The translations under genes were made by a program, and so were the position numbers. The notes under the pieces are model-generated. The model worked only from the letters and a program-made list of their open reading frames with translations. It had not been told where the DNA came from and searched no databases. A DNA stretch of 40,950 nucleotides from Bacteroides sp. (GTDB lineage: Bacteria; Bacteroidota; Bacteroidia; Bacteroidales; SM23-62), in assembly GCA_011053095.1 (NCBI GenBank), contig DRHS01000150.1, positions 1 through 40,950 of the forward strand, given 5' to 3'. Below are positions 25,807 to 38,267 of the stretch, one piece after another; positions within the stretch are counted from its first letter, which is position 1, and every line of letters starts with the position of its first letter.

Positions 25807-25834
25807 TCCTCCCATTATATTAAAAATATTTAAG

Positions 25835-25863
25835 TGCCTTCAGTTCCCCGGAGGCATTTTTTT
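25835..25863 (+). terminator. Rho-independent terminator after the TlpA-like gene
   Basis: TGCCTTC (25835-25841) pairs with GGAGGCA (25850-25856) with one G-U pair, around an 8-base loop. It is followed by a run of seven T. Confidence 0.8.
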
Positions 25864-25980
25864 ATATACAATGGTATTGAATACCGGTTCACTCCAGGGA
25901 ATTCACAGTTCATTACATTCTATTTTTAATATAGTGGGAGAGATCTAATATTTGCAGTGTCAATTATAAAAACGCAAGCA

Positions 25981-27675
25981 ATGAAAAAAACAGTCCTCAT
26001 TATAATCAGCATAAGCATGATCCTCACTCCAGTGGGATCATTTGCCTCAAGTACAACGCTTGATATCAGTTCCTGGCTTCCAGCGCACAGAGAAGATTCC
26101 GGTACGGATGTATACCAGGCCTATCGAGCAAACAGCAGCGAACACTATCGCTCTGCCAGTCCCTTTAATTCCATGGATGTTAAATATGACGGGGTTGTCC
26201 GTGTCAGTGATGACGACCGTTCAATAAAAAGCATTAGTCCGGGTGGATATGTGAAGATCAGTGTACGTACATTTGGGAACAGTCGTGAATTGCTCGTAAA
26301 CAGTAATTCCCAGGGGAAACTGAGCTATGAGTTTTACGAGGGACGTAAAGAGATCCCATATGAGCCGGAAGGACGCAGGTGGCTGGAAGATGTTTTACTC
26401 GATGTTGTAAGGTCAACGGGTCTTGATGCAGAAGGCCGTACAGCAAGAATCTACTCCAAAGGGGGACTCGACGATGTGCTGGATGAAATCACCCATGTTA
26501 GCAGTAACAGTGCCAAATCAAAATATTTCAGTACCCTGCTAGACAATCAGAAACTGTCAAATAAAGAATTAGCCGATGTAGTTTTTGCAATTGCAGGTAA
26601 AATGACGTCCAACACCGAGCGGGGCAGGATATTCCGTAAATACAACAGTTATTTCCTTCAGGAACCTGAAGTGGCAGCGGCTTACTTTTCCGCACTTTCT
26701 AAAATCACATCCGATACTGAAAAGGGAAGGATCTACCGGGATATTGACCAGTCCCTTGATTTTAACAATATTCAACTCGCAGAGGCATACTTTTCCGGTA
26801 TTAACCGTATAAACAGCAACACGGAAAAGAGTTCAGTCCTCCGCCACACCATCGAAAACCAGGATCTGCCGGTGCATGCTCAGGCAGCTTTACTACGATC
26901 CGTATCCAGAATAACCAGCAGTACCGAGGCCGGCAGGGTTTTGCGTTCATTGGGAGAACTCGATTTTACCCACCCCATGATCCAGGAGACCTATTTTATT
27001 GCAGTTGATAATATAAGCAGCGCTACTGAAACCGGTTCAGCTCTCCGTGATGTATTGACAAAAAATTCACTGGAGGGCCCGGCCATGATCGCTTATTTAA
27101 GCAGTACACGTAAAATAAGTTCGAGTACACAGATCAGCCATGTAATACGTTCGATTAAGATAATAGACCTGGATGATGCCGGGATAAGGGAGGCCTATTT
27201 CAACGTTATACGGCTTACTTCAAGTACGACGGAGGCCGGAAGAATGCTAAGGTATACCCTTGAAACACACTCACTTAAGCAACATTCCCTGATAAATTTG
27301 TGCGAAACTAACCGGAGGATAAGTTCAAATACAGAAGTCAGCTCTGTACTTCGTGCATCCATTCCATACCTGATCTATGAAGAGCCCGTGCTGGATGCAT
27401 TCTTCTCCTGCACCAATGTACTCTCAAGTTCCACCGAACATGGCAGGGTGCTCCGGGAGTTAGCGAAAGTTCAGGATCTTGATCGTCAGGCGGTCTCCGG
27501 GATAATGCATTCTGCAACTAAGATATCATCAAGCACCGAAAAGGGTTCTGTGTTGAGAGCTGTGGCCCCTATGATTGAGGATGGTGACCGGGAAATGAAA
27601 GATCTTTTTATGGAGACAGCCCGTACCCTCAGTTCCGACTCAGAATACAGGCGTGTAATGGATGCAATTATGTGA
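25981..27675 (+). CDS. Secreted alpha-solenoid protein with about eleven 34-residue repeats
   Basis: The 564-residue protein has a signal peptide (MKKTVLIIISISMILTPVGSFA). An N-terminal domain (about 65-170) contains VRVSDDDRSIKSISPGGYVKI, RRWLEDVLLDVVRSTGLDAEGR and GGLDDVLDEI. I recall a similar domain in uncharacterised proteins and near M56/BlaR-type regulators. From residue 171 to the end are eleven full and one partial repeats of 34-35 residues, consensus xxISSSTExGxVLR, then about 20 variable residues with AYF near the end. They look like paired helices of an alpha-solenoid, as in TPR-like repeats, which often bind peptides or proteins. The start chosen is the ATG at 25981. A GTG at 25957 gives a longer N-terminus that would weaken the signal peptide. 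It heads a probable operon with the two LytS-like genes and the LytTR regulator. Confidence 0.85.
   Translation: MKKTVLIIISISMILTPVGSFASSTTLDISSWLPAHREDSGTDVYQAYRANSSEHYRSASPFNSMDVKYDGVVRVSDDDRSIKSISPGGYVKISVRTFGNSRELLVNSNSQGKLSYEFYEGRKEIPYEPEGRRWLEDVLLDVVRSTGLDAEGRTARIYSKGGLDDVLDEITHVSSNSAKSKYFSTLLDNQKLSNKELADVVFAIAGKMTSNTERGRIFRKYNSYFLQEPEVAAAYFSALSKITSDTEKGRIYRDIDQSLDFNNIQLAEAYFSGINRINSNTEKSSVLRHTIENQDLPVHAQAALLRSVSRITSSTEAGRVLRSLGELDFTHPMIQETYFIAVDNISSATETGSALRDVLTKNSLEGPAMIAYLSSTRKISSSTQISHVIRSIKIIDLDDAGIREAYFNVIRLTSSTTEAGRMLRYTLETHSLKQHSLINLCETNRRISSNTEVSSVLRASIPYLIYEEPVLDAFFSCTNVLSSSTEHGRVLRELAKVQDLDRQAVSGIMHSATKISSSTEKGSVLRAVAPMIEDGDREMKDLFMETARTLSSDSEYRRVMDAIM
26491..27672 (+). repeat. 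Eleven-plus tandem 34-codon repeats in the solenoid gene
   Basis: The repeats are diverged at DNA level but share the core I/L-T/S-S-x-T/S-E-x-G-x-V-L-R. Period is 34-35 codons. The last unit is cut short at SSDSEYRRVMDAIM by the stop codon. Confidence 0.85.
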
Positions 27676-27703
27676 TACTCCCTTAAAACTGTATTTTTGA
27701 ACT

Positions 27704-28804
27704 ATGAAGAGCAGGGTTGCCATACAGATCTTGATAATAGGCTCCATGTATGCGGTTCTGTACTTCGCCTATACAGTTTTCAGCCTGCAGGGTTCCCTGC
27801 AGGGTATCTTTTTACGATGGACTTCTTTTGTTCTTATCCAGGTATCAGCAATTCTTTGTGGTTTCGCTCTCCACTTTTTAATCGGACGAGCACGAAATTA
27901 CCTCAGGGAGAGATCTGGCAGGTCCATTCCATTACTGATTACCGGATCGCTGACACTTCTCTGCATTTTAGTGTTTACAGTACTTGGTGCCGTTATCTAT
28001 AAATATCTTTTCTCCCCCAATATGCCTTTGGAGGAAATAAATGAATTGTATCCCGGTTTTACTGTACAGATCCTGATTATCAGTGTATTCACGGGGATTG
28101 TGCTGTCAGTTGTTGACCATAACCTTGATTCTTTCAGGCATCTGCAAGAAATACATCTCACTACAAAAAAACTTCAGACCCAGCAGGTAAACCTCAGGTT
28201 TGATTCACTCAGGAGCCAGATCTCTCCGCATTTCCTTTTCAATTCCCTGAATACGATCTCCTCATTGATATACAGGGATGTGCAAATTGCTGAACGATTT
28301 ATCAGAAACCTTGCAAGCGTTTATCAAAGCGTACTCCGGAATTTTGAGAATCCCCTGGTGTCATTGAGGACAGAACTTGAACTTGTTGAGAATTACAGTT
28401 TCCTGATGCAGGTGCGGTTCGAGGATGCACTCTCGGTTGAGATTGACCTGCCGGATGACCTTGATTCATTCCTTGTTCCACCGTTGAGCGTTCAAATGCT
28501 ATTGGAAAATGCCATTAAGCACAATCATATGTCTCAGGAAATCCCACTGAAGGTCAGTATTACCACAGAGGACAATTACCTGGTTGTCAGGAACAATTTT
28601 ATCGGTGATCCCGGACATGTAAAACTTGGAGAAGATCTTTATAAAACACCTGGAGACTCAGGATCACCGGGTATAGGCCTCGAGAATATAAAGAATCGCT
28701 ACCGGATTCTGATCAATAAACCTGTCCTAATCAACAAGGATGAAAACTTCACAGTATCCATTCCACTGATCCACGACGATGAAACAGAGATGGTATATAG
28801 ATAG
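27704..28804 (+). CDS. LytS-type membrane sensor histidine kinase
   Basis: The 366-residue protein has about four hydrophobic segments in residues 5-140. A signalling helix and the histidine kinase core of the LytS/HPK8 class follow. The phospho-accepting box is SQISPHFLFNSLNTISSLI with His176. The N box is LLENAIKHN and the G box is GIGLENIKNRY, so all elements for autophosphorylation are present. It should phosphorylate the LytTR regulator encoded two genes downstream. It starts 28 bases after the solenoid gene stop, and its own stop overlaps the start of the next gene by 26 bases, so the three-to-four gene run is likely one transcript with translational coupling. No ligand-binding extracytoplasmic domain is evident, so the input may come from a partner. 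Confidence 0.93.
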   Translation: MKSRVAIQILIIGSMYAVLYFAYTVFSLQGSLQGIFLRWTSFVLIQVSAILCGFALHFLIGRARNYLRERSGRSIPLLITGSLTLLCILVFTVLGAVIYKYLFSPNMPLEEINELYPGFTVQILIISVFTGIVLSVVDHNLDSFRHLQEIHLTTKKLQTQQVNLRFDSLRSQISPHFLFNSLNTISSLIYRDVQIAERFIRNLASVYQSVLRNFENPLVSLRTELELVENYSFLMQVRFEDALSVEIDLPDDLDSFLVPPLSVQMLLENAIKHNHMSQEIPLKVSITTEDNYLVVRNNFIGDPGHVKLGEDLYKTPGDSGSPGIGLENIKNRYRILINKPVLINKDENFTVSIPLIHDDETEMVYR

Positions 28805-29813
28805 AATCTCCTTCAGGATAGTCTTTCCTGCAATAGCGGGTATTGTGCTTTACCTTGCCATGCTGATGGTCTTCGGAAACCTGGAGAACCTTTCCGGGAC
28901 ATTCTTTAGCCAGGAGGCTCTTTTCCTTGTGATCCTTTCATACATTAACCATGAATGGGCCATCCTTATGCTTGGTCGCAAGAAGAGCCAGGAGGCCCTT
29001 GGAACAGGAATATTTCATCAAAGACTGATCTATTTTCTCATCTTGCTGATGGGCACAGCTCTGATCAGCACAGGGATCATACTTGTATATTTTATTTTTA
29101 TTCTTCGTTACTACCATTTTATAACGGAACTGATGACAATAACTATCCTTATGGTCATCTTCCAGCTTCTTGTCCATATCTACTATACAGGCATGATGAA
29201 TATACGCCGGTATCACAAGCTCTCCATTGAGAAAGAAGAGATCCAGGGCCGGCAGCTCGAGCTTGAACTCGAGAGTTTTAAATCTGAAATGAACCCGGAT
29301 TTGCTTATGGAGTGCCTGGAGAATCTTCTTACTTTGATTAATATAGATATCAGGGAATCTGATAATTACATACAGGCCCTTTCAAATCAATACAGGTATA
29401 TGCTGGATAGCCGTAAAAAAGATTTTGTTATGCTGGATGAGGAATTCGAAGCGGGCAGGGAACTTGTATATCTGCTGAATGATGCTGGGGAAACCAGGAT
29501 ACAACTTGAATATAACAGGGTTAACGGGGATGTTCCCCTCATTCCCGGCACCCTCAATAGCATCATATACAATGTTGAGAGTACCATGATTCTGAATTCA
29601 CTGAGTCCCCTGTCGCTTAAGCTTTCGCTGGATAAGGACGGGGATATCATTCTCAGCCATCCTGACCGGCCAAGGCTTGTTCCGGGGCAAACTATTAATA
29701 TGGGAAAGCTTAATCATTCTTATATGCACTTTACCAACCGGGGAATAGACCGCAGGGAGACAAAATCAGGAATTGAATGGGTAATTCCCAGACTCCCCAA
29801 AATAGTAGAATAA
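28779..29813 (+). CDS. Degenerate LytS-like membrane protein (pseudokinase)
   Basis: The 344-residue protein repeats the architecture of the preceding kinase: about four hydrophobic segments (to about residue 140), a connecting helix, and a core aligned with the LytS kinase core. The phospho-acceptor box reads FKSEMNPDLLMECLENLLTLI, so the His is replaced by Asp174 and PHFLFNSLN is lost. The N box is also not recognisable (IIYNVESTMILNSL), and no GxGLxNI G box is seen. It should therefore be catalytically dead and act as a partner or regulator of the active kinase, a role known for pseudokinases in general but unproven here. It overlaps the upstream kinase gene by 26 bases and ends 13 bases before the response regulator. 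Confidence 0.85.
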   Translation: MKQRWYIDRISFRIVFPAIAGIVLYLAMLMVFGNLENLSGTFFSQEALFLVILSYINHEWAILMLGRKKSQEALGTGIFHQRLIYFLILLMGTALISTGIILVYFIFILRYYHFITELMTITILMVIFQLLVHIYYTGMMNIRRYHKLSIEKEEIQGRQLELELESFKSEMNPDLLMECLENLLTLINIDIRESDNYIQALSNQYRYMLDSRKKDFVMLDEEFEAGRELVYLLNDAGETRIQLEYNRVNGDVPLIPGTLNSIIYNVESTMILNSLSPLSLKLSLDKDGDIILSHPDRPRLVPGQTINMGKLNHSYMHFTNRGIDRRETKSGIEWVIPRLPKIVE

Positions 29814-29826
29814 ATAAACCAATATT

Positions 29827-30600
29827 GTGAAAGTTGTAATTGTTGAAGATGAAAGACCGGCTGCTGAAAGGCTGGAGATGTTACTGAAAAGGGTACACCC
29901 TGATTCGCAGGTAATTAAGGTACTGGACTCTGTAAAGGGAAGTGTCGAATGGTTCAGGGAAAACCCGGGCTCAGCCGACCTGGTTTTTATGGATATCAAA
30001 CTAACAGATGGACTCAGTTTTGAGATTTTTAAAGAGGTTCGCATAAATCAGCCGATGATCTTTACCACCGCATACAATGAATATGCGCTCGAGGCCTTCA
30101 GAGTGAATTCGATAGACTACCTTCTGAAACCCGTTTCAGTGGAGGAACTTGACCGAAGTCTTAATAAATTATCCAGCCTCAGGGAGAATCTGATGGAAGG
30201 ACATCACAGGATTGAATTTGAGGAACTGGCCCGTGTCCTGGGAAAGCTTCAGAAATCTTATAAAAGCAGGTTCATGGTCAAGGTTGGCGATCATATTCGT
30301 TCCATTGCAGTCGAAAACATCCTTCTCTTTTTTGCCGACGGAAGGGTCGTATATGTATTGACCGATCAGGGCAGGGAGTACATTGTTGATTTTAAAATGG
30401 AGGAGCTTGATGAAGTTCTTGATCCGGAGATATTTTTCAGGTTCAGCCGGAGTTACTCAGTCAATATCAATGCTATACGGGATGTCATTATCCATTCCAA
30501 CAGTCGTCTGAAAATTTTACTGAACAGGGAGTTTGAAAGAGAAATGATTGTAAGCCGGGAGAAAGTGAACCCGTTTAAGATGTGGTTCGGGATGAGATAG
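29827..30600 (+). CDS. LytTR-family response regulator
   Basis: The 257-residue protein starts at a GTG (29827) with KVVIVEDERPAAERL. It has a receiver domain (1 to about 125) with acidic pocket ED, phospho-acceptor Asp56 in DLVFMDIKLTDG, the conserved Thr in TTAYNEYALEAF, and Lys in YLLKPVS. The C-terminal LytTR domain (about 155-257) contains FMVKVGDHIRSIAVENILLFFADGRVVYV and FFRFSRSYSVNINAI, a beta-sheet DNA-binding fold distinct from HTH. LytTR regulators usually bind short direct repeats upstream of target genes. It belongs to the solenoid-kinase-pseudokinase cluster. Its stop lies only 5 bases from the convergent TPR-SpoIIE gene. Targets are unknown, possibly surface or cell-envelope genes. 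Confidence 0.94.
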   Translation: MKVVIVEDERPAAERLEMLLKRVHPDSQVIKVLDSVKGSVEWFRENPGSADLVFMDIKLTDGLSFEIFKEVRINQPMIFTTAYNEYALEAFRVNSIDYLLKPVSVEELDRSLNKLSSLRENLMEGHHRIEFEELARVLGKLQKSYKSRFMVKVGDHIRSIAVENILLFFADGRVVYVLTDQGREYIVDFKMEELDEVLDPEIFFRFSRSYSVNINAIRDVIIHSNSRLKILLNREFEREMIVSREKVNPFKMWFGMR

Positions 30601-30605
30601 TAAAT

Positions 30606-33137
30606 TTAGATCCTTATTCCTATTACCAGTATATCATCGACCTGTTCTGTCTCCACCATCCAGTCAGACAGAGTATCCTGCATAACCTGCAACTGCTCAT
30701 CCATTGATTTCATATGGATATTCTGCAGCATCAATTTGAACTTTTTGATCATGAATTTTTTTTGCTTGGGTCCCCCGAACTGATCCGGGTACCCATCTGT
30801 AAATGTATAGACCATATCTCCCTTCTGCAGGTCCAGAGAATGCCTTGTGAAAGGCTCCTTATGCCTGGTGTGGATACCGATGGGCATTTTGTCAGCCTTT
30901 GCTTCGATCAACTCTCCGTTCCGGTAAATCAGCAATGAGTTATTGGCCCCTGAAAATTCTATTTTTTTATTTTCCCTGTCAAGGATGAAAAGGGCAACAT
31001 CCATTCCGTCCTGGCTTCCCCCTTCTTTTCCGGTCTGGTGAAGGGATTTAATTATATGGTTGCGAAGTTCCCCGAGGATCTGGTCAGAATGCAGTTCTGT
31101 GTGCTTGCTGATGATTTCATTTAAGAAGGCAATTCCAAGCATACTCATAAAGGCCCCAGGCACTCCATGACCAGTACAGTCAGCCGCCACACAAATGACT
31201 TTACCTTCTTTCTCGGTAATGTAATAGTAATCCCCGGAAACAATATCACGGGGCATGTAGAGGATAAATCGTTCCGGCATCAGGCTGTCCACATAATCTC
31301 CCGGGGGTAACATAGCATTCTGGATCCGGCTCGCGTACTGAATACTGTCGGTGATCTCCTTTTTTTGTTCTGTAATAAGGTCATTTTTCAGTGCAAGCTC
31401 GCGGTTCGCCTTTTTCTTGAGGTTGTTCTGCCTGATCAGCTGTAGCATCATGACAATAAACACCCCGATAGCAAGAATGGTAATAGCAAGTACCACCCTG
31501 ATTTGCTTTAGTTTTGCGGCGTCCAGTTCACCTTCTGCCTGAAGAAGGGCATTTTCTTTCTCGGTGGCCTCTGTCTCATATTTCACCTGCATATCGGCTA
31601 TACTTTTCAGTTTATCCTCGGTGTTGAATTTTTCAAAAGATGCGAAATAGAGTTTGAAGTATTTGAGGGACTGGATGTAATTATTCTGCTTCTCATGTAC
31701 CTCGGCAAGTTTTTGGTAGATGGTCTGTGTTATTTCCTTGGTATCCGATACAAGTGAGAGTTCAAGGGCAGAGTTAAGGTAATCGAGAGCTGTCGGATAG
31801 TTTCCGAAAGCCATGTAAACCTCTCCAAGCAACAGGTTTATTGTTCCCATTTGGTATTCCATCCGACCCGCACTTTCTATATTCAGTTGTCTGGCCCTCT
31901 CAAGCGGTTCCAGTGCCATGGCTGGCTTGCCGGAGTAAACATAAATTATACCGATATTGGTAAGAACGGTTATCATACCCTGTCCATCTCCCATTTCCTC
32001 TCTTACCTCGAAGGCTTCATTATAGTATCGTAGGGCTTCATCAAAGATCTCCAGGTACTTATCTGTAGTTTCAATTTTGACTGAATCCTGAAAATTATCC
32101 CCGAATAATGACTTTAAGGAATCTTCCGCTAGCTTATTGTATATGTTCCCGATATTATTAAGGGCACTGGCAATATCCGCTTTGTCATCCAGATCCCGGC
32201 TTTTTTCCAGATGCTCCAATCCGAATTCAAGGGCTTTATCCAGCAATTCCTGTCTGAAATAGATAACACCCATGGTGTTGGTTACGGCGGCTATTCCCTG
32301 AGCTGAATTTAATTCTTCAAAAATAGGCAGTGCCTTTTGAAGGTGACCCAGTGCGAGATCATAATCAGCCCGGTTCATACTGGCAGCTGCAAGTAGATAA
32401 TGCATCCTGGCGGACTCAAACTTTTTGCCAACCTGATTAAAGAGATCAGCGGCCTCTTCATAATGTTTTGTAGCCTCCGGAAAATTGCCTTTCTGGGACA
32501 TGGTCTGTCCAATACCTCCCACGATGTCTGCAAGAACACTTATGTCATTAATTTCTTCAGCGATGATTCTTGCCTGCTCAAAATAATTCAATGCATGGTC
32601 GTATTCTCCATTCCAACTGTAATTTCTTGCATAATAATACAGAACCTTTGCCTCGATTTCCCGGAATTTATTTTCCCTGGCAATTTCAATTGATTGATAG
32701 TAGTGGTTTCGGGCTTTTGTTGTGTCTTCGAGGTAATTGTATACATTTCCTATCCTCATCAGGGATGTCGCCATGCCATAAGGGTAGTTATTTTCCTCGC
32801 TGACCCTATAGGCCGTTTCGAAAGTCTCGATCGACTGATTGTTGTCATCGATATCGTACTGGAACAGGCCATGTTTCAGATATGCTTCCACAAGAAGTTC
32901 GGAATTGGACAAATCGGTAGCCATGGCAATGGCATCTTCTGAATACTCCTGTCGGTCATCCGTGGAGAGTAAGTTGTTTTCGGCGAGGGTAAAAAGAAGC
33001 TGAAGTCTTTCTTCTCCTTCTGTCGTTTCAAGAAGAGTGACAAGGCTGTCAATCTCAGGGTTATCCTGTGCGGCGAGAGGATTGCCGGCGAACAGGATTA
33101 TTCCTGCAAAAAAAGGTATGAGGATGTATAATTTCAT
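30606..33137 (-). CDS. TPR-SpoIIE membrane phosphatase
   Basis: The 843-residue protein begins with a signal peptide (to about residue 23). About ten tetratricopeptide repeats follow (about 30-500) with typical spacing, for example ALNYFEQARIIAEEI, ALGHLQKALPIFEEL and ALDYLNSALELSL. There is a single membrane segment (about 546-568: VVLAITILAIGVFIVMML), a coiled-coil, and then a SpoIIE/PP2C-type phosphatase domain (about 610-843). The latter has YMPRDIVSGDYYYI and the metal-binding CVAADCTGHGVPGAFMSMLG. The TPR part would be extracytoplasmic and the phosphatase cytoplasmic, fitting a sensor that controls an anti-sigma antagonist or partner by dephosphorylation. No partner is encoded nearby. 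It has a strong Shine-Dalgarno site and is convergent with the LytTR operon. Confidence 0.9.
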   Translation of the reverse strand: MKLYILIPFFAGIILFAGNPLAAQDNPEIDSLVTLLETTEGEERLQLLFTLAENNLLSTDDRQEYSEDAIAMATDLSNSELLVEAYLKHGLFQYDIDDNNQSIETFETAYRVSEENNYPYGMATSLMRIGNVYNYLEDTTKARNHYYQSIEIARENKFREIEAKVLYYYARNYSWNGEYDHALNYFEQARIIAEEINDISVLADIVGGIGQTMSQKGNFPEATKHYEEAADLFNQVGKKFESARMHYLLAAASMNRADYDLALGHLQKALPIFEELNSAQGIAAVTNTMGVIYFRQELLDKALEFGLEHLEKSRDLDDKADIASALNNIGNIYNKLAEDSLKSLFGDNFQDSVKIETTDKYLEIFDEALRYYNEAFEVREEMGDGQGMITVLTNIGIIYVYSGKPAMALEPLERARQLNIESAGRMEYQMGTINLLLGEVYMAFGNYPTALDYLNSALELSLVSDTKEITQTIYQKLAEVHEKQNNYIQSLKYFKLYFASFEKFNTEDKLKSIADMQVKYETEATEKENALLQAEGELDAAKLKQIRVVLAITILAIGVFIVMMLQLIRQNNLKKKANRELALKNDLITEQKKEITDSIQYASRIQNAMLPPGDYVDSLMPERFILYMPRDIVSGDYYYITEKEGKVICVAADCTGHGVPGAFMSMLGIAFLNEIISKHTELHSDQILGELRNHIIKSLHQTGKEGGSQDGMDVALFILDRENKKIEFSGANNSLLIYRNGELIEAKADKMPIGIHTRHKEPFTRHSLDLQKGDMVYTFTDGYPDQFGGPKQKKFMIKKFKLMLQNIHMKSMDEQLQVMQDTLSDWMVETEQVDDILVIGIRI

Positions 33138-33656: not shown

Positions 33657-36600
33657 ATGAAAAACATCTACAAATTACTAAATGTATTTCCTGGTCTGGC
33701 AGCAATTATGCTCCTGGCCATAACCAGTCAGAATGTAGATGCCCAGTTTATCAACGGGCAGCCAAGGGATGTGACCATATTTGAAGGTCATTCATCTTCC
33801 GTATTTTTCTCAGTCGATGTAAACCCGGATGTGACAGTTACATTTCAGTGGTTCCTTAAAGATCCGGGAGCATCAACCGGAAATCCCATCAAGGGAGCAG
33901 AGACTGCGGTGTTGGAAGTCCCCTTTACAGACCTCTCTCGAGCCGATACGAAATCAAACGGATATGGATATTATTGTGTTGTTATTGATGCCCTCAAAGT
34001 TACGGAAGAAAGCCTCCATGCATATCTCTGGGTTCAACCTTTGCCCAAAGTCCAGGTCGTTACAGGTCATCCATTGGACGTTACCAGGGACGTTGGATTC
34101 AAGGGAGAAGTAAATTTCAATGTGGAGGTAACAGCCGGATTGAAAGCAGATTTCCTATGGTCCAGGAGGGATGCTGACCCAGGGGCTGTCTGGAAGGACG
34201 TCGTCGGTTCTGGTCCCCAGTATACAGAGTTACTTATAAGCCTCGATCCGAAACAGAACGGGACCGCTTACAGGTGCCAGGTTAAACATGCGGACGGTGG
34301 CGAATTCAGCCAGGTGGCATACCTCTGGGCCAGTGTACCAAAACTCCTGATTTTAACGGAACCTGTGGATGTAACAAAACCGGAGGGATTTGTCGGAACA
34401 ATAACCTTTGATATAACACCAAATCCTGAATATGAACCTACATTCCAGTGGGAATTCAAATTGCCCGGAGGGGACTGGGAACCTTATAAAGGTGGAGAGA
34501 AACCTTTGCTGGAGTTTCCAATCGAGGACCCCCTGAGTAGTAAGCTTGACGGGACTGCTTTTCGTTGTATTGCCAGGTTCAAGGAGATCACGGAGGTTAG
34601 TGAAACTGCATACCTGCGTATGGAGGAAGCAAACATTTACATTCTCCAGGATCCGGAAGATGTAATGAAGAAAGAGGGTTTTACCGGGGAATTAAATTTC
34701 GCAATTAAATACGATGATGCCTACCCGCTTGTATTCCAGTGGCAGGAAAAGAAACCTGGGGGTTCCTGGGTGGATATTTCCTTAGAACATACACCCAATA
34801 AACCGGAACTATATTATAAGATAGAGAAACTATCCCTCGGAATGAATGGTTGGGGTTTCCGCTGTGTTGCCATAAATAATGAAGCCAAGGAGGTGGAATA
34901 CAGTAAAGAGGCAAACCTTTATGTCACACCGGATATACCATATATCCTGGATATTTCAGGAAATGTTACTGTTTGCGAGGGCGTGGCAACAGATGCAAAA
35001 TTTGCAGTCAAAATAGAGCAAAGCGTTGCACTAAGCCTTCAATGGCAGATTTCACCTGCCGGAGATAAAAATTGGTATGACATCAAGGGAGCCACCAGCG
35101 AATTGTATGTCAAATCCTATACGGAAGTGCCACTCAGTCATAACAGCAATGCATTCCGGTGCCGTGCAACCGATGAGTATGGAGGATTTGAGATCAGCGA
35201 TATCGCTTTCCTCAATGTAAGAGCATTACCGACGATCACAACGCATCCTGTTAGTCAGGAAAAAATGGTTGGTGAGGCCGCCACTTTCAACGTGGCTGCC
35301 ACCGGCTACAAGCCATTCTATTACCAGTGGTATAAAGACGGCGGAGCTATTACAGGGAACACAACTTCTTCATTAAGTTTGTTCCCGCTTTCGGAGTCGG
35401 ATGGCGCTGATTATAGGGTTATTGTAAGAAATTATTGTGCAAACTCAAATGATACCAGTAACGCTGCTACCCTTGTGGTCAATGCTCCTTTATTTGATGA
35501 CGGCTGGTTTGAGCAGGAAATCGTAACCAGCAAGAAACTTACCGATATCAAATTTACCGGTACCAATTCAGGCTGGGTAACCGTGGCACCTTCCTTATTT
35601 ATATACAAGACTGTGGATGGCGGCAAGAACTGGAGCTCTGAAAGTGTAACAACCAGCAAGTCATGGGAGGCCGTCTTCACCACAGATGCCAACCATGTGT
35701 GGATTGCGGGTGAGGACTCCATTAAATACAGCACCCTGGGAGGGGGAACCTGGATTGGAGCAGCCATGAATGGGGTGCTCAGTGCTATTAATCTGTTTGA
35801 TCTATATTTTGTCGACAATTCGAATGGTTGGGCGGTTGGTGATAATGGGTTAATTCTTAATACCAGTGATGGCGGTGCTAACTGGTCCGAGCAGCACAGT
35901 GGTGATAATCCTAACATTGTCACCGATGTGAATCTTTCAGCAGTTCATTTCTTCGATGCAGATTCCGGATGGACTGTTGGAGCACTTGGTAAAATACTAT
36001 TTACAGATGACGGAGGTGCCAGTTGGGCACTCCAGACATCGGGTGTCAGTGATAAGAACTTCCTGGATGTGCATTTTATTTCCAGCAAGACCGGATGGGT
36101 GGTTGGAAGTGACAGTATCTTTCTTTCAACTGTTGATGGTGGTCAATCATGGGATCCCATCACTTCACTAAATACATCTGCTGACCTGACCGGTGTGCAT
36201 TTTGACGATGCAGACCATGGTTGGGTGATTACCAGTAATGGGATGATATTCAGGACCAATGACGGGGGAATTAGCTGGTTCAGCCAGGCTTCCGGAACAA
36301 GCCTGGCATTAAATGCCATTGATTTTGCAGATTATGATAATGGCTGGGTAGTTGGTGATAACGGGACCATTTTGCGGACTGCCTACAGTGGCTGTCTGAC
36401 GCCGACCGTAAGCCTGTTCGAGGACAAGGAGTTCTGTGCCAGTGTGAATTACCAGTTGGTAGCAGATACGTTTGCAAATAATGTTGATTGCAGTTACCTA
36501 TGGAGCCATGGAGGAACCACAACTGGTACATATAACGTTACTGAATCTGGCAAGTTCTGGGTCAGGGTTACATCTGTTTGCGGTGTAGTGGTTTCGGATA

Positions 36601-38267
36601 CTGTAAATGTGGTTCTCTACCCGCTGCCTGAACCATATGCGGGGACCGACCAGGAGATTTGTGATGGAGACAGCGTGCAGTTACTTGCAACCGGCGGGGT
36701 TGAATACAGCTGGGATAATGCCGGATTACTGGATGATGAGAGTATACAGAATCCAAAGGCTGGTCCACCGGTAGGAGCTACAGACTTTATTGTTACGGTA
36801 ACCGATGAGAACCTCTGTGAAAATACCGATGTAGTCAAGGTAACCGTATATTCCATACCGAACTCTACCTTTACCTCTCCCGATGAGATTTGCCTCGGAG
36901 ATTCCGCTGCCATCAACTATACAGGAACAGCAACATCCGGCGGCAATTTCTGGTGGGACTTCGATGAAAGATCTACGGTATCCTCAGGTGACAGCATTGG
37001 TCCTTATGGCGTAAGCTGGGATACAGCAATGGTATACTCTGTTGAACTTGTCGTTGAGGAGAACGGTTGTTCTTCCGATACCAGCAAGGCTAGTCTTACT
37101 GTACATCCAATCCCGGTATCCACATTCAGTTTGCCGGAAGCCGTATGTAACTCCGACCTGGTGACCGCCCTTTACGGTGGATCTGTCTCAGGGGATGCAA
37201 CATTTACGTGGGACTTCGACGGAGGAGTAGTTAGTGAAGGAGATGCAAATGGTCCCGGACCCATAAAAATTACATGGGCAACAGAGGGAACCAAAACAGT
37301 TAGCCTTGATGTAAGTGATCATGGTTGCGGATCAGCTGTAACGGAAGAAGATATCATCGTGTCATATCCTTTCAATGAGCAAAGCATTTGTCTGGTCACG
37401 GTGGATTTAGAGACCGGAAAAAATGCCATCATCTGGGAGAAGCAATCTGAGCCAGGAATTGATTTCTACAACATTTACAGAGAATCCAATGTCGGAGGAG
37501 TCTATGACCTGATTGCCACCTTCCCGGCAGATACACTGAGTTATTATGTTGATGTAAATTCAGAGCCTGAGTTAAAATCGCATAAGTACAGAGTTTCGGT
37601 AGTCGATACCTGTGGAAATGAGTCAGATGTAAGCTTGTATCATAAATCGATGCTGCTGACTACGGGACTGGGCAGTGACAGAATTAACGTGAGCTGGACA
37701 GAATATGAAGTTGAGGGTACCGGTTTTGGTTTTGTATCCTATATTATTTACAGGGGACCTGCAGCCAATATGCTTGAACCCATTGATACCATACCTGCAG
37801 ATAACACCTTGTATCCGGATATCAATCCGCCTGATGGAAATAACTTCTATCAGGTAGCTGGTGTGGCAGCAGATGCATGCAGTCCATCAGGGATATTTAA
37901 GGCTGGAACCGGTCCATACAGCCACTCACTCTCAAACCTTGATAATAACAAGCTGAAGGAGAGTGATACTACAAGTAATGTATCTGTCAGGGATGTATTA
38001 ACGGAGAACAATCAACTAAGGGTATATCCAAATCCATTCTACGATCAGATAAAGGTTGATTACCTCCTGCAAGAGAATGCCGATATTTCGATCGAGGTAT
38101 TTAATTTACTTGGGGTCAGAGTATTCGAAGTGAATTTCGCTGACCAGATACCGGGTCTTCACAGTTATGATATCAGGGCCACCGAACTTGACGGTAGTTC
38201 AATTTACTACCTGAGGTTTAAGATAGACGGCAGGACAGCTGTAAAGAAGCTTATTCCTGCGAGGTAA
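33657..38267 (+). CDS. Giant T9SS-secreted protein with Ig-like, YCF48-like and PKD-like domains
   Basis: The 1536-residue protein has a signal peptide (about 1-30). Six consecutive immunoglobulin-like units of about 95 residues follow (about 31-611), each with FQW or LQW and a YxC or FRC strand. A beta-propeller of YCF48/BNR-type repeats comes next (about 612-925; SGWTVGALGKILFTDDGG, NGWVVGDNGTILRT). After it are PKD-like domains (about 935-1230) and a fibronectin-like region (about 1230-1425). The end is a T9SS type A sorting domain (about 1455-1536; LRVYPNPFYDQIKVDY and SSIYYLRFKIDGRTAVKKLIPAR). It would be exported by Sec and T9SS and attached or released at the surface. Its role could be adhesion or polysaccharide binding, but no catalytic domain is seen. 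The YCF48 repeats are structural and imply no photosynthesis. Confidence 0.9.
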   Translation: MKNIYKLLNVFPGLAAIMLLAITSQNVDAQFINGQPRDVTIFEGHSSSVFFSVDVNPDVTVTFQWFLKDPGASTGNPIKGAETAVLEVPFTDLSRADTKSNGYGYYCVVIDALKVTEESLHAYLWVQPLPKVQVVTGHPLDVTRDVGFKGEVNFNVEVTAGLKADFLWSRRDADPGAVWKDVVGSGPQYTELLISLDPKQNGTAYRCQVKHADGGEFSQVAYLWASVPKLLILTEPVDVTKPEGFVGTITFDITPNPEYEPTFQWEFKLPGGDWEPYKGGEKPLLEFPIEDPLSSKLDGTAFRCIARFKEITEVSETAYLRMEEANIYILQDPEDVMKKEGFTGELNFAIKYDDAYPLVFQWQEKKPGGSWVDISLEHTPNKPELYYKIEKLSLGMNGWGFRCVAINNEAKEVEYSKEANLYVTPDIPYILDISGNVTVCEGVATDAKFAVKIEQSVALSLQWQISPAGDKNWYDIKGATSELYVKSYTEVPLSHNSNAFRCRATDEYGGFEISDIAFLNVRALPTITTHPVSQEKMVGEAATFNVAATGYKPFYYQWYKDGGAITGNTTSSLSLFPLSESDGADYRVIVRNYCANSNDTSNAATLVVNAPLFDDGWFEQEIVTSKKLTDIKFTGTNSGWVTVAPSLFIYKTVDGGKNWSSESVTTSKSWEAVFTTDANHVWIAGEDSIKYSTLGGGTWIGAAMNGVLSAINLFDLYFVDNSNGWAVGDNGLILNTSDGGANWSEQHSGDNPNIVTDVNLSAVHFFDADSGWTVGALGKILFTDDGGASWALQTSGVSDKNFLDVHFISSKTGWVVGSDSIFLSTVDGGQSWDPITSLNTSADLTGVHFDDADHGWVITSNGMIFRTNDGGISWFSQASGTSLALNAIDFADYDNGWVVGDNGTILRTAYSGCLTPTVSLFEDKEFCASVNYQLVADTFANNVDCSYLWSHGGTTTGTYNVTESGKFWVRVTSVCGVVVSDTVNVVLYPLPEPYAGTDQEICDGDSVQLLATGGVEYSWDNAGLLDDESIQNPKAGPPVGATDFIVTVTDENLCENTDVVKVTVYSIPNSTFTSPDEICLGDSAAINYTGTATSGGNFWWDFDERSTVSSGDSIGPYGVSWDTAMVYSVELVVEENGCSSDTSKASLTVHPIPVSTFSLPEAVCNSDLVTALYGGSVSGDATFTWDFDGGVVSEGDANGPGPIKITWATEGTKTVSLDVSDHGCGSAVTEEDIIVSYPFNEQSICLVTVDLETGKNAIIWEKQSEPGIDFYNIYRESNVGGVYDLIATFPADTLSYYVDVNSEPELKSHKYRVSVVDTCGNESDVSLYHKSMLLTTGLGSDRINVSWTEYEVEGTGFGFVSYIIYRGPAANMLEPIDTIPADNTLYPDINPPDGNNFYQVAGVAADACSPSGIFKAGTGPYSHSLSNLDNNKLKESDTTSNVSVRDVLTENNQLRVYPNPFYDQIKVDYLLQENADISIEVFNLLGVRVFEVNFADQIPGLHSYDIRATELDGSSIYYLRFKIDGRTAVKKLIPAR

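Follow-up and report, generated by a model that had tools for sequence, protein, structure and literature searches.

The four genes described here, from an uncultured Bacteroidales bacterium, form a conserved unit rather than a chance cluster: a secreted solenoid protein (SOL), a membrane histidine kinase (HK), a pseudokinase (PHK) and a LytTR response regulator (RR). The reference module lies in a 40,950-nucleotide (nt) stretch of contig DRHS01000150.1 (assembly GCA_011053095.1), which as a whole is referred to as the window. The genes and the parts of SOL are as follows.

25981..27675, + strand: SOL, 564 residues; the open reading frame opens at 25957 and the ATG is at 25981
Within SOL: Sec signal peptide; N-terminal beta domain, residues 61-126 (~26161-26358); conserved linker, residues 127-163
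~26470-27672, + strand: SOL helical solenoid, residues 164-564, two-helix repeats of 34 residues
27704..28804, + strand: HK, membrane histidine kinase, 366 residues, four transmembrane (TM) helices
28779..29813, + strand: PHK, pseudokinase, 344 residues, about four TM helices
29827..30600, + strand: RR, LytTR response regulator, 257 residues, GTG start

The initial annotation of this DNA had described four co-directional genes with a 28-nt gap, a 26-nt overlap and a 13-nt gap, and all of these values proved exact in a check of the reading frames. Conservation was examined in 393 genomes of the order, 395 of the phylum and a class sample; the samples overlap, and module counts refer to genomes observed, not to prevalence. 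A single search for loci related to the window returned a congener only, and profile searches then found many more modules. Nineteen complete modules from 15 families were recovered, with the order SOL-HK-PHK-RR throughout, 12 of them within the order and 7 elsewhere in the class; the module is uncommon, its carriers making up a few per cent of the genomes. In the congener (L004) all four genes are present at 50-74% identity, with flanking synteny to the window that reaches beyond the module. A locus from another family (L005) carries the four genes in different flanks.

In the order sample, SOL was found in 14 of the 393 genomes and all 14 neighborhoods were inspected. In twelve of them the module is complete and contiguous, with gene order and strand preserved. 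In G072 the contig stops beside SOL and HK-PHK-RR opens another contig, and in G103 SOL-HK-PHK is intact with a close RR (406 bits) located elsewhere. The PHK profile picked out 15 of the same 393 genomes at 390-464 bits, ordinary kinases scoring from 188 bits down; the gap is not a training effect because two PHK genomes outside the profile training score 409 and 415 bits. These 15 are the 14 SOL genomes and G119, whose contig begins inside HK. The four-gene co-occurrence suspected in the initial annotation is therefore borne out by the 19 modules and by the association of SOL with PHK (14/14 SOL genomes, Fisher p = 8e-25). Nor was the solenoid mostly found apart from the kinases, as each solenoid genome of the order sample has the kinase pair. 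SOL-like proteins occur in 11 genomes of the phylum sample, five of which belong to other orders of the class and carry the module in full, and the PHK profile matched those five and the genome of the window and none other. Two more complete modules (G835 and G1054) were added by the class sample. The genes are closely packed, with a median HK-PHK overlap of 4 nt, a median PHK-RR gap of 11 nt and a median SOL-HK gap of 107 nt, and the HK and PHK genes overlap in 14 of 17 modules. The proteins also diverge in a correlated manner (HK-PHK, r = 0.91; PHK-SOL, 0.72; RR-SOL, 0.74), values reached in 0 of 2000 permutations each.

PHK matches PF06580 (5.5e-9) without a HATPase match, and in the window it reads EMNPDLL where HK has QISPHFLF, so that the histidine is replaced by aspartate (Asp174), and both the N-box and the G-box are lost. 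The position of the H-box histidine is occupied by D, G, K, E, N, F or S, and never by H, in 20 aligned PHKs, all of which lack the N- and G-boxes; two PHKs found later also lack this histidine, making the phospho-acceptor missing in 22 of 22. In a tree that included 15 ordinary LytS-like kinases, the 22 PHKs form one group and 20 HKs another, each with 100/100 support. Because the histidine is missing from all 22 and the PHKs form one clade, catalysis was, most simply, lost once, anciently, and the protein has been retained since. By its sequence PHK, having neither phospho-acceptor nor ATP-binding motifs, fits the definition of a pseudo-histidine kinase. In the same tree, HK and PHK of G220 (L033) both group with other orders, as if the module had moved in one piece.

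The conservation of PHK is distributed unevenly. Its TM1/loop/TM2 part has Jensen-Shannon (JS) scores of 0.56-0.62 and its ATPase-like region 0.47; the region resembling the dimerization and histidine phosphotransfer (DHp) domain is its best-kept cytoplasmic part (JS 0.61), and the N-terminus is conserved as well. The pattern in HK is reversed, with outer loops at 0.37-0.42, the H-box at 0.66 and the ATPase at 0.58, and the TM region and outer loop of PHK are more conserved than those of HK. Such a split would be expected if PHK provides a receptor surface and HK the chemistry, and retention of the DHp-like region is what pairing of the two would predict.

HK matches the Pfam family PF06580 (1.1e-21) and its boxes are intact in the window (H-box SPHFLFN within QISPHFLF, His176; N-box ENAIKHN; G-box GIGLENI); the motifs [ST/N]PH[FY]LFN, ENxxKHN and GLxNI are kept by every HK that covers the region. 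RR matches LytTR (PF04397, 3.1e-17) and Response_reg (2.8e-11), its receiver residues Asp8, Asp56, Thr81 and Lys101 are invariant among 12 RRs, and with a mean identity of 54% it is better conserved than the other three proteins. Judged from sequence, the histidine and N/G boxes of the one and the receiver Asp and Thr/Lys of the other qualify the two as a phosphorelay two-component system. The hydrophobic segments of HK number four and the loops outside the membrane are only some 20 residues long, in agreement with the absence of an obvious extracytoplasmic sensor domain noted in the initial annotation. Its designation as a LytS kinase holds for the PF06580 transmitter and fails for the sensor part: there are four TM helices, and no Pfam match to 5TMR-LYT was found in HK up to E = 10, that domain being the defining mark of LytS-type kinases (PMC10653868).

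SOL has a Sec-type signal peptide, as judged by inspection, and ten S-x-T-E repeats spaced by 34 or 35 residues. Its self-identity at a lag of 34 is 20.8% versus 6.8 +/- 1.3% in shuffles, and AlphaFold2 predicts residues 164-564 to be a helical solenoid (predicted local distance difference test score, pLDDT, mostly >90), preceded by the beta-rich domain (61-126) at lower confidence. The designations of gene 1 as a secreted solenoid of 34-residue repeats, of gene 3 as a dead paralogue of the kinase and of gene 4 as a LytTR regulator were thus all upheld. Among members, the beta domain and linker are the best-conserved part of SOL, and the number and sequence of the repeats vary. Searches of Pfam, NCBIfam and PDB sequences gave no relative of SOL, only matches at chance level; TPR/HEAT/PPR and Sel1 profiles gave no Pfam repeat match among 14 members; and Foldseek with the SOL model returned generic alpha-solenoids only (TM-score up to ~0.3), with no informative neighbor.

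Inspection of the aligned DNA upstream of SOL revealed a tandem direct repeat, 2 x ACARTTCAYTACA. The signals ahead of the module in the window are listed below.

25832..25859, + strand: terminator-like hairpin with a 10-bp stem and T-run, 3' of an upstream thioredoxin-like gene; from a consensus scan only
25884..25917, + strand: predicted LytTR operator, CCGGTTCACTCCA - 8 nt - ACAGTTCATTACA, period 21 bp; copies at 25884-25896 and 25905-25917
25946..25954, + strand: possible Bacteroidota -7-like element TAATATTTG, 28 nt past the operator; a weak prediction

When a position matrix was fitted that allowed any period from 19 to 24, a period of exactly 21 was chosen in 19 of 20 modules, and each of those 19 sites beats 100/100 shuffles in leave-one-out tests that also dropped the nearest relative for two close pairs; no signal of comparable size was seen at the other periods. 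In the twentieth module (G072) the repeat lies upstream of an extra gene preceding SOL, so that the repeat is upstream of the operon in 20/20 modules. This extra gene, between operator and SOL, is CAAX-protease-like (Rce1-like; L024 1898-2578). In most modules the repeat ends 61-72 nt ahead of the SOL start codon, and a third, in-register copy is present in four modules. Within 3 mismatches it is the sole site in the 5-Mb genome of the window, where the chance expectation in the window is none. Eleven module genomes were scanned whole; the repeat stands ahead of the operon in 9 of them, 8 contain no further site, and a control with the reversed pattern gave 0-1 matches per genome. Published LytTR sites consist of two 9-11-nt repeats separated by 11-13 nt (PMC4847170), a geometry shared by the repeat in 20/20 modules. 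Repeats of this kind, located upstream of the -35 element, can allow LytTR systems to switch on their own operon (PMC6193735). As the repeat upstream of the operon has this known operator geometry, the operon is probably autoregulated by RR through the predicted operator.

A scan with the classical LytTR consensus was not significant by site counts (14 sites versus 8.9 +/- 3.0). Sigma-70 promoter matches were at chance level and were set aside, Bacteroidota using other promoters; TA-N2/3-TTTG, TTTTTG or TATTTTG occurs 28-31 nt past the operator in seven modules (window, L004, L005, L026, L033, L085 and L088). The hairpin would part the thioredoxin-like gene from the module. A 20-nt inverted repeat (25809-25828 and 25921-25940, 95% complementary, 92 nt between arms) flanks both the hairpin and the operator. 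In G220 (L033, L131-L133), extra operators occur before a SIMPL-domain gene beside SOL, near an HlyD-like adaptor and before a small secreted protein; an envelope regulon is possible, the sites being too few to name one. Because flanking genes differ between genomes, none was inferred to be a target of RR.

SOL is also found with other signaling proteins. In two genomes of other classes (L089 4708-8690 and L090 4083-7488), BlaI is followed by an M56/BlaR1 protein and then by a free SOL, and the C-terminus of the M56/BlaR1 protein consists of SOL-type repeats (IPSSGDKxRVL). The classical BlaR1 sensor is a C-terminal class-D beta-lactamase-like domain (PMC7593790), and the SOL repeats take its place in these two proteins. 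At L091 4009-6662 and L092 3810-6400, an extracytoplasmic function (ECF)-type sigma gene, a probable anti-sigma gene and a small membrane/exported gene are followed by SOL. The recurrence of the SOL domain with BlaR1/BlaI and ECF sigma outputs supports a periplasmic signaling role and points to a signaling partner rather than an enzyme. The repeat described above was not found upstream of the SOL genes in the BlaR1 or sigma contexts, and a tblastn search of plasmids with a BlaR1-associated SOL gave no match. The beta domain of SOL occurs alone, with a lipobox-like Cys, in proteins of 121-126 residues (L093 5669-6034, L121 3990-4370), and G607 and G652 contain candidates for similar proteins. 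A wider proposal, which we consider somewhat less likely than not, is that SOL (beta domain plus solenoid) may be an undescribed portable extracytoplasmic signaling domain used by at least three unrelated output machines (kinase/pseudokinase/LytTR, BlaR1/BlaI proteolysis and ECF sigma/anti-sigma), with the dead kinase serving as a dedicated TM receptor in an obligate heterodimer in the LytTR version.

We propose that the four genes constitute one autoregulated signaling operon in which periplasmic SOL regulates an HK-PHK membrane complex and RR acts on the repeat, a reading that we consider to have about an even chance of being correct. SOL would be exported to the periplasm and act there as the regulatory partner of the complex. 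HK and PHK would probably form a heterodimer to which PHK contributes the signal-receiving TM part and dimerization helices, and HK all of the catalysis. A signal, either an envelope condition or a ligand, would alter the hold of SOL on the complex; HK would then phosphorylate RR, and RR would bind the 21-bp-period repeat upstream of SOL and activate the operon. Since SOL is the first product behind the operator, feedback is most likely part of its role as well, by analogy with ExoR and CpxP and their respective kinases. Gene content and its conservation, the early loss of catalytic residues in PHK, the conserved operator-like repeat and the operon-like spacing are established by the sequences; we infer the contact of SOL with the complex, the pairing of HK with PHK, the binding of the repeat by RR, the sign of the SOL effect and the envelope nature of the signal. 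According to the initial annotation, the solenoid may provide the input signal through binding of a ligand or a piece of cell wall. This putative input role is plausible, and the BlaR1-terminal and sigma/anti-sigma contexts lend it support. The autoregulatory operator, however, suits a feedback inhibitor of the ExoR/CpxP type or an output protein just as well as an input protein, or better.

Several observations weigh against the operon proposal. In G103 the RR gene has been relocated away from the module. In some genomes the SOL-HK gap is long, 659 nt at most, and given this spacing SOL may also be transcribed alone. The correlated divergence values partly mirror shared species history. The structure model of PHK, made from a two-row alignment (window and L004 proteins), had a pLDDT of 52, too low to support a fold, and was discarded.

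In an alternative reading, SOL would be the output and not the input. HK and PHK could sense through their TM helices, with RR mainly raising SOL as a periplasmic chaperone, binding or quality-control protein; we think this unlikely but the strongest of the alternatives. The sole strict operator in the genome of the window is upstream of SOL, which would make SOL the first and perhaps only direct target, the TM part of PHK is strongly conserved, and the SOL-HK gaps are the longest in the operon and would permit separate SOL levels. The LytS-type kinase BtsS, moreover, binds pyruvate inside its TM helices and has no periplasmic domain (PMC10653868). However, repeats of the SOL type form the C-terminal end of BlaR1/M56 proteins, in the place of the classical sensor (PMC7593790), SOL adjoins sigma/anti-sigma genes elsewhere, and its restriction within the order to genomes with this kinase pair would be unexpected for a protein that is purely an output. 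Alternatively, PHK might not pair with HK at all and might be an independent membrane scaffold or a decoy, titrating SOL or RR for example, with SOL acting on PHK only. The loss of every catalytic motif and the conservation of PHK's own TM part and outer loop would suit such a protein, but gene overlap with HK in 14/17 modules, the tight HK-PHK co-divergence (r = 0.91) and the retained dimerization-helix region speak for pairing, and we rate this idea as decidedly unlikely.

Another possibility is that the tandem repeat is bound by a regulator other than RR. Many of its copies read ACAATTCAC, unlike the classical GTT core of LytTR sites; yet the repeat has LytTR architecture, lies upstream of the module in 20/20 cases and is absent upstream of SOL in the BlaR1/sigma contexts, and RR shows the highest conservation among the module proteins, all of which makes a different regulator improbable. 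The least credible explanation, of an ordinary two-component pair beside two unrelated genes with no functional unit, is already contradicted. LytS/LytTR-like pairs are indeed very common in the order (345/393 genomes have low-score kinases matching the profile), and the flanking synteny between window and congener exceeds the module. Nevertheless, the four genes keep their order across 15 families whose flanks differ, PHK without SOL is seen only at a contig edge, and the operator is common to the modules.

Literature searches returned no paper describing a SOL-HK-PHK-RR module, consistent with the remark in the initial annotation that no described system of this composition was known to its author, and the module has apparently never been described before. 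It is two-component signaling in a new form, not a new principle. The established LytS/LytTR systems (BtsS/BtsR, YpdA/YpdB and LytSR) share with it the PF06580 transmitter, the LytTR regulator and a direct-repeat operator (PMC4847170, PMC10653868). Unlike them, the module has no 5TMR-LYT domain, only four TM helices, an obligate pseudokinase and a secreted solenoid, and its operator sits ahead of its own operon. In the LytTR Regulatory Systems (LRS; HdrRM and BrsRM), a LytTR regulator likewise shares an operon with a membrane partner behind autoregulatory upstream direct repeats (PMC6193735). LRS, however, consist minimally of a regulator and a membrane inhibitor and are distinct from kinase systems; the receiver domain and intact kinase of the module rule out its assignment to this group.

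The nearest working precedent for SOL is ExoR; this periplasmic protein, built of Sel1 repeats, acts as an inhibitor of the kinase ExoS (PMC4550343, PMC10659215). The ExoR-ExoS-ChvI system (the RSI switch of Sinorhizobium) resembles the module in combining a periplasmic repeat protein with a histidine kinase and in the co-occurrence of its components, and exoR is autoregulated (PMC4550343, PMC10659215), as the module would be in the proposed reading. It differs in having Sel1 repeats, a one-piece ExoS with a periplasmic domain, a ChvI that is not a LytTR protein, and no pseudokinase. Of the two features that define the ExoR family, Sel1 repeats and a signal peptide, SOL has the signal peptide by inspection and no Sel1 match. 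With BlaR1/MecR1-BlaI the module has the SOL repeats in common only through L089/L090, and the module in the window contains neither an M56 nor a BlaI gene. CpxP is made by its own regulon. It is a periplasmic inhibitor of its kinase (PMC10659215), but a small protein rather than a long solenoid; the kinase, CpxA, contains a periplasmic domain, and the CpxP-CpxA pair has no pseudokinase. For PHK, a comparison can be made with RetS, which blocks GacS by forming a heterodimer (PMC4866733). There too a second kinase-like protein modulates an active kinase (PMC4866733), the role proposed for PHK, although RetS is a hybrid kinase of another family and PHK is operon-linked, LytS-like and devoid of all catalytic motifs.

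One experimental lead was met in the literature. In Flavobacterium johnsoniae, each of five lines that had coevolved with an antibiotic-producing organism carried a mutation in either FJOH_RS09515 (LytTR) or FJOH_RS09520 (kinase) (PMC10197871). The two have neighboring locus tags and are at most candidates for members of such a module. Two further genes of the window lie downstream of RR. A convergent gene at 30606-33137 (- strand) encodes an 843-residue protein with TPR and SpoIIE-phosphatase domains; it adjoins the module in the congener L004 too and is absent beside other modules. The gene at 33657-38267 encodes a 1536-residue immunoglobulin-like/YCF48-like protein with a type IX secretion tail (Por_Secre_tail).

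In summary, the module is old and widespread in Bacteroidia and carries no annotation, SOL being without a family match. If the proposed reading is true, this would be a two-component system in which sensing and catalysis are split over two paralogues, one of them permanently dead, with a secreted repeat protein as partner. The predicted operator makes the circuit directly testable, with one promoter, one regulator and three upstream proteins. The presence of the SOL domain with BlaR1-like and sigma systems suggests an unrecognized sensor domain, which could be used to find further, uncharacterized envelope-sensing systems.

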